Source: Gammaproteobacteria bacterium (GTDB lineage: Bacteria > Pseudomonadota > Gammaproteobacteria > Xanthomonadales > SZUA-36). Taken from it: a stretch of DNA of 64,000 bases. Position numbers and translations under genes: made by a program. Under the pieces are notes generated by a model that did no database searches, had not been told where the DNA came from, and was given only the letters and a program-made list of their open reading frames with translations. Location: positions 186,001 through 250,000 of the forward strand of contig JAJFLB010000023.1 of NCBI GenBank assembly GCA_021772915.1, read 5' to 3'. Numbering within the stretch: position 1 is the first letter of the stretch; each line of letters begins with the position of its first letter. Below are positions 51,984 through 55,163 of this stretch, in pieces.

Positions 51984-52547
51984 ATGAAAATACTGAAAAA
52001 TTATGGTTTGATCCTGATTCCCGCCCTGGGAATAGCCACATCCAGCCTGGCCGAAGAACAAGCTGAGGTAACACCAGCACCGGTAAAATCTGCACCGGCA
52101 AAATCTGTGTGTGAAACCATGGATGGTTTTGGTGACTTTGATTTCTGGGTGGGCGATTGGAACGTCTATTCCAATAATGAGAAACGAACTCTCCAGGGCA
52201 GCAACTCCGTTTCAAAGCAACACAAGAACTGTCTGATTGTTGAAAACTGGACCAGCGCACGGGGCGGAACCGGTAGCAGCATGAACTACTTTGATCCGGT
52301 GACCGGCCAGTGGCGCCAGTTGTGGGTGGCCGGAGGTTATTCCATTGACTACACGGGCGGCTTGAGTAAAGACGGTGCAATGATCCTCAAGGGCAAGATC
52401 AACTACTACAAGAATGACACAACGCAGGCCTTTCGCGGCACCTGGACGGCGAATTCCGATGGCAGCGTCCGACAGTTGTTTGAAATACTCAGCCTGGAGA
52501 CGAACGAGTGGACCGTGTGGTTTGATGGACTTTATGTAAGAAAATAA
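51984..52547 (+). CDS. Secreted protein of unknown function (FDFWVGDW motif)
   Basis: 187 residues. A signal peptide (MKILKNYGLILIPALGIATSSLA) is followed by a Pro/Ala-rich linker, VCETMDGFGDFDFWVGDWNVYS, and a beta-rich domain (NYFDPVTGQWRQLWVAGGYSIDY, GTWTANSDGSVRQLFE). The motif F-D-F-W-V-G-x-W is shared by a family of small periplasmic beta-barrel-like proteins, lipocalin-like in outline; no biochemical role is known to me. Two Cys may form a disulfide. The 280-base gap before it shows nothing clear. Confidence 0.78.
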   Translation: MKILKNYGLILIPALGIATSSLAEEQAEVTPAPVKSAPAKSVCETMDGFGDFDFWVGDWNVYSNNEKRTLQGSNSVSKQHKNCLIVENWTSARGGTGSSMNYFDPVTGQWRQLWVAGGYSIDYTGGLSKDGAMILKGKINYYKNDTTQAFRGTWTANSDGSVRQLFEILSLETNEWTVWFDGLYVRK

Positions 52548-52676: not shown

Positions 52677-52874
52677 ATGGATCGTAGAGAGATGGTGTCA
52701 CTCAAGCTACAGATGGGTATCAACCCATCGGTGGAACTTGCGCCGGATATTCTGCGGGCCATGTGGCAACAGTTAAAACGTGAACGCGTGAATACACGAA
52801 CCACACGTTTGGTCATGGCCACGGCCAGGTCCCGTGACCACCAGCACAGCACCGTTCCCAAGCCCATCATTTAG
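52677..52874 (+). CDS. Small hypothetical protein
   Basis: 65 codons from ATG at 52677, with GAGGA eight bases upstream. The peptide starts MDRREMVSLKLQMGINPSVE, continues with a probable amphipathic helix (LAPDILRAMWQQLKRERVN) and ends in a basic tail. It is not recognised. The track's longer version starts 30 codons earlier without a ribosome site. It lies in the 750-base region between the secreted protein and the PqqD-like/GT gene. Confidence 0.35.
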   Translation: MDRREMVSLKLQMGINPSVELAPDILRAMWQQLKRERVNTRTTRLVMATARSRDHQHSTVPKPII

Positions 52875-53065
52875 TTGGTCCCGGACGGGTCAGTTCCCTT
52901 AAAGATATAAAAAAGACGGTTTTTTTTCACCAAAAGCCGTGTAAGCACTGGATTTTGTGCGCTTTTTCGAGTACCCTTGTACGCACCAGGATAGGGAGGG
53001 GAGGGAATCCAAGCATCTTGATCTGCATTGCTGCCGGCCGACACGGGGTCGTGCTTCTGGTTGCA

Positions 53066-53137
53066 ATGTCTTTAAACGATTTCGCCACCCGCTGTACTCA
53101 GTGCGGTTGTAAATGCAGAAGCGGAGCCGACAAATGA
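53066..53137 (+). CDS. Possible 23-residue Cys-rich peptide
   Basis: A short frame, MSLNDFATRC then TQCGCKCRSGADK, stop, with four Cys within eight residues. It is the 3' part of a 60-codon frame starting at TTG 52955. No good ribosome site is visible, so it may be chance. It is noted because it lies 160 bases ahead of a protein with a PqqD/RRE-like domain and just before a strong terminator. Coding status is unproven. Confidence 0.2.
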   Translation: MSLNDFATRCTQCGCKCRSGADK

Positions 53138-53206
53138 TCGCTGCTCACAGTGACGGGTTCTGACTGTAATTCTGCCGAATCGCAGTGAATTATGTACAGG
53201 GTCAGT

Positions 53207-53243
53207 AAGACAGACGCTTCGAAGAGGTGTCTGTCTTTTTTTC
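53207..53243 (+). terminator. Rho-independent terminator
   Basis: AAGACAGAC (53207-53215) pairs with GTCTGTCTT (53229-53237) around a 13-base loop, followed by a run of seven T. It ends about 58 bases before the PqqD-like/GT gene on the same strand. It should end a transcript from the 52.6-53.2 kb region, either the small ORFs or an RNA, or act as a leader attenuator. Confidence 0.8.
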
Positions 53244-53300
53244 TGAACCAGACTCTTTTTTGGCTTACAATTTCTTATCACTCAGACAACTCCCGGAACA

Positions 53301-55163
53301 ATGACAGACAAACCTGAATTATCCCTGGATATCACGGTAGACCCGAACGCGAACTTTAAGCCGCTATCGGACCACGTCGCCTTTGATCTTTGTTCGGCCT
53401 ACTCCCTTTCTGAGGGCAGTCTTTTGCTCTACAACACGCGCACTGGCAATCGCACAAAGATTACGCCTGATGTTTACACCGCACTATGGAGTTGCCAGCA
53501 GTTCAAAACCCTTGACCAGCATGTCAAGCAGATTATTGTTGAGCACCCGGGTATGGAAGGGCAGCAAGCCGATGTCCGAATGGTATTGGAAACCATGCTT
53601 AACGACGGCATGCTGCTGTCTGGGAAAAGAGTCTGCGACTCACTCAGGCAACAAACCGACAAGCAAGACATTAAGAAAGATGATAGTTCGCCAGTAGTTG
53701 TAATTATTACCTGGGAACGGCCAGAGGCACTCGAGCGCCTGCTGACATCCGTAGCCACAAACTGCAACACCGGGAAAGTCCACCGGCTGTATGTGGTGGA
53801 CGACTCACGCCAGCAGGAAAACATCGGCCTTAACCAAGCGGCAGTTGACCAGTTTGCATCCAAGGTTAACACCCAAGTGAAGTATTTTGGTCAGACCGAG
53901 CAACAATCCCTACTGGAGCAGCTCGCAAAGAAACTACCCGACCATGAAAGCGCACTGCGTTTTCTCGCCGACCAGTCCCAATGGCGGGATCACTGGACCA
54001 GTGGCCTGGCCCGCAATCTTGCCTTACTCCTGTCCTGTGGTCACCGCCTTGTGATGCTGGATGACGATACAATCTGTGATGTATACGAGCCTGATCAGCC
54101 AAAACCCAACATTACGTTTTCCACTGCTCAACGCGAGGCTGACTTTTTTGAGAACGAAAAGGGCTGGAAGCATCGGCACCAGCCAATCAATCCAGACGCC
54201 GTCGACCGCCACATGCAGTGCCTCGGTTTGCCGTTTTCCGTTGCACTGGGTGTCCTGGGTCAAAATAATCTGAAGCCAACCGGGCTCGAACACGCAAACG
54301 CGTTATTGCTCAACGATCTTAAGCAGGATTCATTGGTGCTGGTAACGGAGTGCGGTTCGTACGGTTGTCCCGGGATGGGTTCAAATACCTGGCTGCCGGA
54401 TATGACACCAGATTCCATCAAGGCCATGCTGACATCCGAGCAGAAAACGCACAACGCCCTGACCAAGCGGGCTGTTTGGTGTGGCCGCAACCAACCACAC
54501 TTTGGGCCCCGTACCAACATGTCACAGATTACCGGCTTCGACAATCGCCACATGTTGCCGCCTTATTTACCCATCCTGCGTGGCGAAGACCGGTTGTTTG
54601 GCATTATGCTGAATTTCATGTTCCCATCGGCCGTGACACTGGACTATCCCTGGGCCATCCCCCACCTGCCTCTGCCGGAGAGACATTGGACCGAAGAAGA
54701 TCGGGATTTCACGCCGGGCGGGGCATTTCCACTATTATTCAACGAGCAGTTGCTGGAGCGAAAGTCATTCTGTGCCGCCGGCACCGACCAAGGACGTCTG
54801 ACGGCGGTGGCGGCCTGGTACAGCGAACTGGCCACTGCCTCTGTAAGCTCCCTGACTTCAATGCACCGCGATGCCATGTTGCAGGAAATCTCGGAGCAAC
54901 TCCAGCACTTGAGTTTCTTGCTGGCGGAGGCAGAGGCTGATTCTGCCCCAACCGAGTGGCAGGATTATCTGAAAACTGGCATTACCCAGCTGGAGTCTGG
55001 ATTGGACCTGACCAGCCATGAAGATTTCTCACTCAAGGGACTGCCAACAACCCTGGAAGGGACTGAACTGGCTAACTTCTGGAAAGAAACATGGGCCGGC
55101 TTTGCAGCAGCCCTACATGCGTGGCCCGAAATTCGCGCTGCTGCGGCTGAACTGGACCCCTAA
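53301..55163 (+). CDS. PqqD/RRE-like domain fused to a GT-A glycosyltransferase-like domain
   Basis: 620 residues. The first 110 resemble PqqD or a RiPP recognition element: LLLYNTRTGNRTKITPDVYTAL, then a helix (TLDQHVKQIIVEHPG) and VRMVLETMLNDGMLLSG, the usual three-helix and wing order. Residues of about 130-330 look like a GT-A transferase: VVVIITWERPEALERLLTSV, LYVVDDSRQ, and the metal-binding LVMLDDDTICDVYEP. About 290 further residues, including GEDRLFGIMLNF and HLPLPERHWTEED, are not recognised. The combination suggests a peptide- or protein-linked sugar transfer, but no RiPP genes lie nearby. Domains are inferred from pattern; start ATG at 53301 is clear. Confidence 0.65.
   Translation: MTDKPELSLDITVDPNANFKPLSDHVAFDLCSAYSLSEGSLLLYNTRTGNRTKITPDVYTALWSCQQFKTLDQHVKQIIVEHPGMEGQQADVRMVLETMLNDGMLLSGKRVCDSLRQQTDKQDIKKDDSSPVVVIITWERPEALERLLTSVATNCNTGKVHRLYVVDDSRQQENIGLNQAAVDQFASKVNTQVKYFGQTEQQSLLEQLAKKLPDHESALRFLADQSQWRDHWTSGLARNLALLLSCGHRLVMLDDDTICDVYEPDQPKPNITFSTAQREADFFENEKGWKHRHQPINPDAVDRHMQCLGLPFSVALGVLGQNNLKPTGLEHANALLLNDLKQDSLVLVTECGSYGCPGMGSNTWLPDMTPDSIKAMLTSEQKTHNALTKRAVWCGRNQPHFGPRTNMSQITGFDNRHMLPPYLPILRGEDRLFGIMLNFMFPSAVTLDYPWAIPHLPLPERHWTEEDRDFTPGGAFPLLFNEQLLERKSFCAAGTDQGRLTAVAAWYSELATASVSSLTSMHRDAMLQEISEQLQHLSFLLAEAEADSAPTEWQDYLKTGITQLESGLDLTSHEDFSLKGLPTTLEGTELANFWKETWAGFAAALHAWPEIRAAAAELDP

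Follow-up and report, generated by a model that had tools for sequence, protein, structure and literature searches.

What would a glycosyltransferase do with a domain of the kind that binds the leader peptides of RiPPs? The question is raised by a gene in the window, the whole 64,000-nucleotide stretch of a gammaproteobacterial contig that we analyzed. The initial annotation had read its product as a PqqD/RRE-like N-terminus fused to a glycosyltransferase and had raised, on links it called weak, the possibility of a peptide glycosylation system involving small upstream open reading frames (ORFs). RRE-glycosyltransferase fusions have been reported as unexplored (RRE-Finder, PMC7470986; fusions to PF00535, PMC12710340). 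The fusion type is already known, and the surface-system context in which we find it is, as far as our literature search reached, undescribed. The reading that we favor, with a probability of roughly 0.5, is that the protein is a cytoplasmic GT-A glycosyltransferase of a surface-protein and glycan export system, with its RRE domain recruiting a polypeptide.

Architecture of the enzyme

The gene and the elements of its product are arranged as follows, with the evidence for each in brackets.

53301..55163, + strand: RRE-glycosyltransferase gene, 620 amino acids (ORF list and orthologue identity)
53373..53651, + strand: N-terminal RRE/PqqD-like domain, residues ~25-117 (AlphaFold model, hhalign, Foldseek)
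53694..54665, + strand: GT-A catalytic domain, residues 132-455 (AlphaFold model, Foldseek, conserved motifs)
54060..54068, + strand: DxD metal/nucleotide-sugar motif, D254-D255-D256 (D255 in 33/33 members, D254 in 32/33, D256 in 31/33)
54582..54590, + strand: xED motif, G428-E429-D430 (D430 in 32/33, E429 in 28/33)
54663..54665, + strand: GT-A C-His, H455 (invariant, 33/33)
54732..55154, + strand: C-terminal all-helical domain (bundle), residues 478-618, with an invariant W608 (AlphaFold model, alignment)

Searches of relatives' genomes recover the gene throughout the window's genus (ten genomes of ten), where orthologues are 53-63% identical, and in many families across the order Lysobacterales/Xanthomonadales, with identities of 19-41% outside the genus. 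A profile of the operon-borne subgroup, scanned against named genomes, led to 77 named loci, with matches in Rudaea, Tahibacter, Dokdonella, Pseudofulvimonas, Chiayiivirga and Marinicella among them. The window protein alone, used as the query against genome contigs, returned no match, and no plasmid copies of the gene were found. Sequence searches of Pfam, NCBIfam and the PDB gave no significant match to the enzyme: Glycos_transf_2 (PF00535) reaches 14.0 bits on the window protein (E 0.05; gathering cut-off 23.3), and similarly weak matches appear in 19 of the 33 family members. Upstream of the gene, at window positions 51984-52547, lies a coding sequence for a secreted protein of 187 amino acids without a Pfam match, which is conserved in this place in the genus.

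The AlphaFold model of the full-length enzyme, calculated from an alignment of 33 homologues, has a pLDDT of 90.9 and a pTM of 0.90. In Foldseek it matches TarP, GlfT2, AvpGT and GalNAc-T2, with E-values down to 4e-5. The enzyme shares with these proteins the GT-A fold with its DxD, xED and C-His motifs, but is only ~10-14% identical to them and adds the N-terminal RRE and the C-terminal helical domain. Upon alignment of the 33 members, the motif set, which is among the matters treated in PMC7185993, proves to be complete. Taken with the model, this conservation makes it highly probable that the enzyme is an active glycosyltransferase. The GT-A motifs that the initial annotation had picked out (TWERP at 137-141, DDD at 254-256) stand, and the ~290 C-terminal residues that it had left unassigned comprise the remainder of the GT-A domain (as far as ~455, including xED and C-His) and the helical bundle of residues 478-618.

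In the full-length model, the N-terminal domain adopts the β4-α3 topology of RREs, mostly at a pLDDT above 90: strands at residues 25-28, 31-35, 41-45 and 51-54 are followed by helices at 56-63, 71-81 and 89-101. A profile-profile comparison (hhalign) with the PqqD family, represented by 11 PqqD-type proteins from related genomes, aligned the two in register over 78 columns (score 28.4, P 1.3e-4), at a probability of 54% where RRE-Finder requires 90% from HHpred with its own database. When the comparison was rerun, the true pair scored 23.9 against a maximum of 7.9 among 200 column-permuted controls. Among the Foldseek matches of the full enzyme model, TigE, which we take to be an RRE-bearing RiPP enzyme, stands at rank 22 (E 2e-4; aligned residues not shown). 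A model of the N-terminus only, built without an alignment, is weak (pLDDT 50); the TbiB1 RRE, CteB-type sactisynthases and PqqD head its PDB match list at E >0.4, and RRE proteins account for 8 of its 16 top structural matches, none of them individually significant. Because the topology, the in-register profile match and the RRE structural matches agree, we consider it very likely that the domain has an RRE fold. In this respect the three lines of evidence bear out the initial annotation, which had itself named structure prediction of the N-terminus as a check. That the domain also binds a polypeptide is a prediction toward which we lean with less confidence. Compared with PqqD and other RREs (PF05402; PDB 3g2b, 5v1u, 5why and TigE 8vpo), it has the same secondary-structure order and an in-register profile similarity, but it falls below Pfam detection (PF05402 matches none of the 33 family members), is fused to a glycosyltransferase and has no precursor peptide gene nearby.

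Several proteins outside this comparison deserve mention. The window's genome encodes two other PqqD-domain proteins (~474 and ~382 amino acids) close together, at L178:1321-2745 and G000:C52:118168-118332, which presumably form a separate RRE system. One operon copy of the enzyme (L158:13244-15178, in genome G029) retains a recognisable N-terminal RRE-like domain, and its glycosyltransferase motifs look degraded. In another protein (L189:136-3045), the same glycosyltransferase and C-terminal domains lie behind FkbH-like and carrier-protein domains, as read by eye, with no RRE, that is, a different recruitment domain is placed on the same catalytic core. The wider family in other gammaproteobacteria (L190 to L205) consists of putative glycosyltransferase proteins of ~600 residues that share the core and the C-terminus and differ in the N-terminus.

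The operon downstream of the type II secretion genes

In most families other than the window's, and at nearly all loci outside it, profile-based gene calls place the enzyme gene within a fixed operon, whose components we named by their Pfam and NCBIfam matches. Its order is lipo (a lipoprotein-like gene), SURF, a PKD-like secreted protein, PPIase, Wzm, Wzt, GT_a, methyltransferase, RRE-GT (the enzyme) and GT_b. Wzm and Wzt make up an ABC-type glycan exporter, whose Wzt carries the C-terminal domain of that family, and GT_a and GT_b are GT2 enzymes. Neither a ligase nor an initiating transferase could be recognised among these genes. The operon lies directly downstream of a type II secretion (T2SS) cluster, which in the genome that holds the window comprises gspE, F, G, H, J and K, a PilN/GspL-like gene, gspM and gspD and leads, on one strand, into lipo and SURF.

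SURF is a secreted protein of ~500 residues, encoded in the window's genome at L149:11959-13599 (contig C10) and by orthologues such as L057:15622-17040; some genomes hold up to nine matches to it. Across 200 genomes of the order, 95 carry both SURF and the enzyme, 28 carry SURF without a recognisable enzyme, 10, most of them incomplete, carry the enzyme only, and 67 carry neither (Fisher p 7e-20, kinship ignored). Together with the gene order, this co-occurrence argues that the enzyme is functionally tied to the SURF/glycan locus, which we regard as likely.

Slr4 provides a precedent for a surface protein encoded next to a T2SS of its own (PMC7821379). As with Slr4 and the Aeromonas S-layers, a gene for a secreted surface protein lies directly downstream of the T2SS cluster; the SURF locus differs in adding glycan export, a PPIase and the RRE-glycosyltransferase, and SURF itself has no Pfam match. 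The fusions listed by RRE-Finder likewise join an RRE-type domain to a GT2/GT-A enzyme, but were proposed as RiPP enzymes, whereas here the fusion belongs to an operon of type II secretion, surface protein and glycan export with no small precursor. Our search of a limited literature library found no description of this operon.

Candidate ligands and alternative roles

How might the parts work together? In the reading we favor, the enzyme would act in the cytoplasm as a metal-dependent GT-A glycosyltransferase that docks a polypeptide through the RRE fold at its N-terminus and ends in a helical domain. It would belong to a surface system of the Lysobacterales, in which a T2SS cluster is followed by the operon for SURF, a second secreted protein, a periplasmic PPIase, the Wzm/Wzt exporter, two GT2 enzymes and the methyltransferase. 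We infer that the RRE may hold a polypeptide of this system (SURF, by its leader, or an enzyme partner from the glycan pathway) and that the GT-A domain may meanwhile transfer a sugar, with the glycan chain bound for Wzm/Wzt or the protein itself, before export, as the acceptor.

Signal peptides are normally less conserved than the mature part of a protein. SURF shows the reverse: with boundaries set by a simple pattern, its signal peptide (MKRNNLTTAVVAGIAGVAG...) has a mean pairwise identity of 66%, compared with 46% for the first 150 mature residues, and in the PPIase of the same operon, divided in the same way, the signal peptide is 14% and the mature part 28% identical. By its conservation, the SURF signal peptide recalls a leader peptide and makes the best, leading but unproven, candidate for the RRE ligand; that it is in fact the polypeptide bound we hold to be possible, though doubtful. 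Genomes of the window's family that have the operon and lack the enzyme retain the SURF leader, so some other factor must also constrain it. In a bolder version, the RRE would read the conserved Sec leader of SURF, and the enzyme would glycosylate the large T2SS surface protein while it is still in the cytoplasm. We consider this version unlikely; if true, it would extend RiPP-style leader logic to bulk surface-protein glycosylation across a bacterial order. RREs that work with Sec-exported precursors have been described for DUF2063/DUF2282 (PMC12710340), where, as here, the RRE is encoded with a protein bearing a Sec signal peptide; the precursor there is small, whereas the candidate here is a secreted protein of ~500 residues and the enzyme is a glycosyltransferase.

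The enzyme may instead be an ordinary glycosyltransferase of glycan chains in the Wzm/Wzt pathway, in which the RRE fold would provide protein-protein docking or a structural winged helix and would recognise no leader. For a capped glycan that is exported, one usually finds just what the operon holds: an exporter whose Wzt has the C-terminal domain, two more GT2 enzymes and a methyltransferase. The persistence of the SURF leader in enzyme-less genomes is also in line with such a role. The N-terminal domain itself points both ways. RRE folds resemble winged-helix domains generally (PMC7470986), and relatives outside the order that have the same glycosyltransferase and C-terminal domains have no recognisable RRE; yet within the order the domain is retained in nearly all copies of the enzyme, including those detached from the operon, and the models place peptide-binding RREs among its leading, if individually weak, structural matches. 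We regard an ordinary glycan-chain enzyme as a real possibility, and retain as our preferred reading the enzyme that recruits a polypeptide to the surface system.

In the window's family, the enzyme gene has left this system's operon. The operon lies on another contig, and in it the methyltransferase gene is followed directly by GT_b, with RRE-GT missing between them. In the window's genus, the RRE-GT gene stands alone beside thrC (thrC, thrB and thrA near it are presumptive names that we gave from their sequences), and in family f9 it lies beside genes that resemble Fe-S assembly genes by size and order. In a tree of the enzyme rooted on relatives outside the order, all detached copies group in a single clade (99/99) that lies within the operon copies, from which we conclude that one departure from the operon, in an ancestor shared by two families, accounts for them. 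The new position in the window's genus and in family f9 could mean that the detached window copy now acts on something else, outside the surface system. This is improbable in our view, as the catalytic motifs and the domain order are unchanged and the enzyme is kept almost only together with the SURF operon, most exceptions being incomplete genomes.

Upstream sequences and the meaning of the fusion

Three elements upstream of the enzyme gene bear on the small-peptide proposal.

52677..52874, + strand: 65-codon ORF, a small conserved gene outside the system (homologues in genomes G004, G005, G006, G008 and G010)
52930..53260, + strand: conserved intergenic element of ~330 bp upstream of the enzyme gene (nhmmer matches, alignment, terminator stem)
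53066..53137, + strand: Cys-rich 23-codon ATG frame with CTQCGCKC, judged not a gene (Cys codons lost and frame broken in relatives)

The 65-codon ORF exists as first described. Five of the searched relatives have a homologue, and we judge it to be a real small gene of the genus, separate from the enzyme. The proposed tie between the two does not hold: in relatives with both on one contig they are ~2 kb apart, separated in G006 (the only locus mapped) by an M28 peptidase gene, and one genome that lacks the enzyme has the ORF as well. We rejected it as a partner of the enzyme on these grounds. The 23-codon frame is likewise present, but in the DNA alignment of relatives it is interrupted by frame-breaking indels and in-frame stops and loses its cysteines, while the surrounding DNA is conserved; as a reading frame it is nothing beyond what chance would give. 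With no protein conserved, and no flanking small ORF in homologues, we rejected this frame as a RiPP precursor. The initial annotation had looked to a conserved small ORF next to homologues; around 98 distinct homologues there is none, and the small-ORF clusters found there are alternate-frame shadows only. A RiPP-like peptide glycosylation with either frame as its precursor, which the presence of an RRE domain near small ORFs in the window's genome had brought to mind, is thus highly improbable, the more so as no leader peptidase or small-peptide exporter was recognised near the enzyme gene.

The conserved upstream element is most simply read as the gene of a small RNA or as a leader that is transcribed, probably non-coding and ending in a terminator, rather than as a peptide gene. 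Matches by nhmmer to the intergenic element occur at the same place in seven other genus members (L002, L003, L004, L005, L006, L007 and L010). It contains an invariant 15-mer, TTCGCCACCCGCTGT (53081-53095), which is found in 8 of the 10 genus members, single-copy in most, and is absent from the other genomes tested in the window's family. The element ends in a hairpin resembling an intrinsic terminator (53207-53237). The initial annotation had called a strong terminator here, and the hairpin is indeed present. One site of this kind is close to the shuffled expectation (0.7), but relatives preserve its stem through paired changes. An Rfam search with the element returned no family, even with E-values of up to 1 allowed. 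We saw the element only in this genus, as a candidate new small RNA or leader.

RRE domains serve as flags for RiPP clusters. The enzyme family described here presents a clear case in which conserved gene order links the RRE-type domain of a glycosyltransferase with the secretion of a surface protein and the export of a glycan, and not with a small precursor peptide. Orphan RRE-glycosyltransferase fusions thereby gain a concrete, testable context in the culturable Dokdonella, Marinicella, Rudaea and Tahibacter, and the family draws attention to a surface system that is large and still uncharacterised, and in which a signal peptide is strongly conserved.
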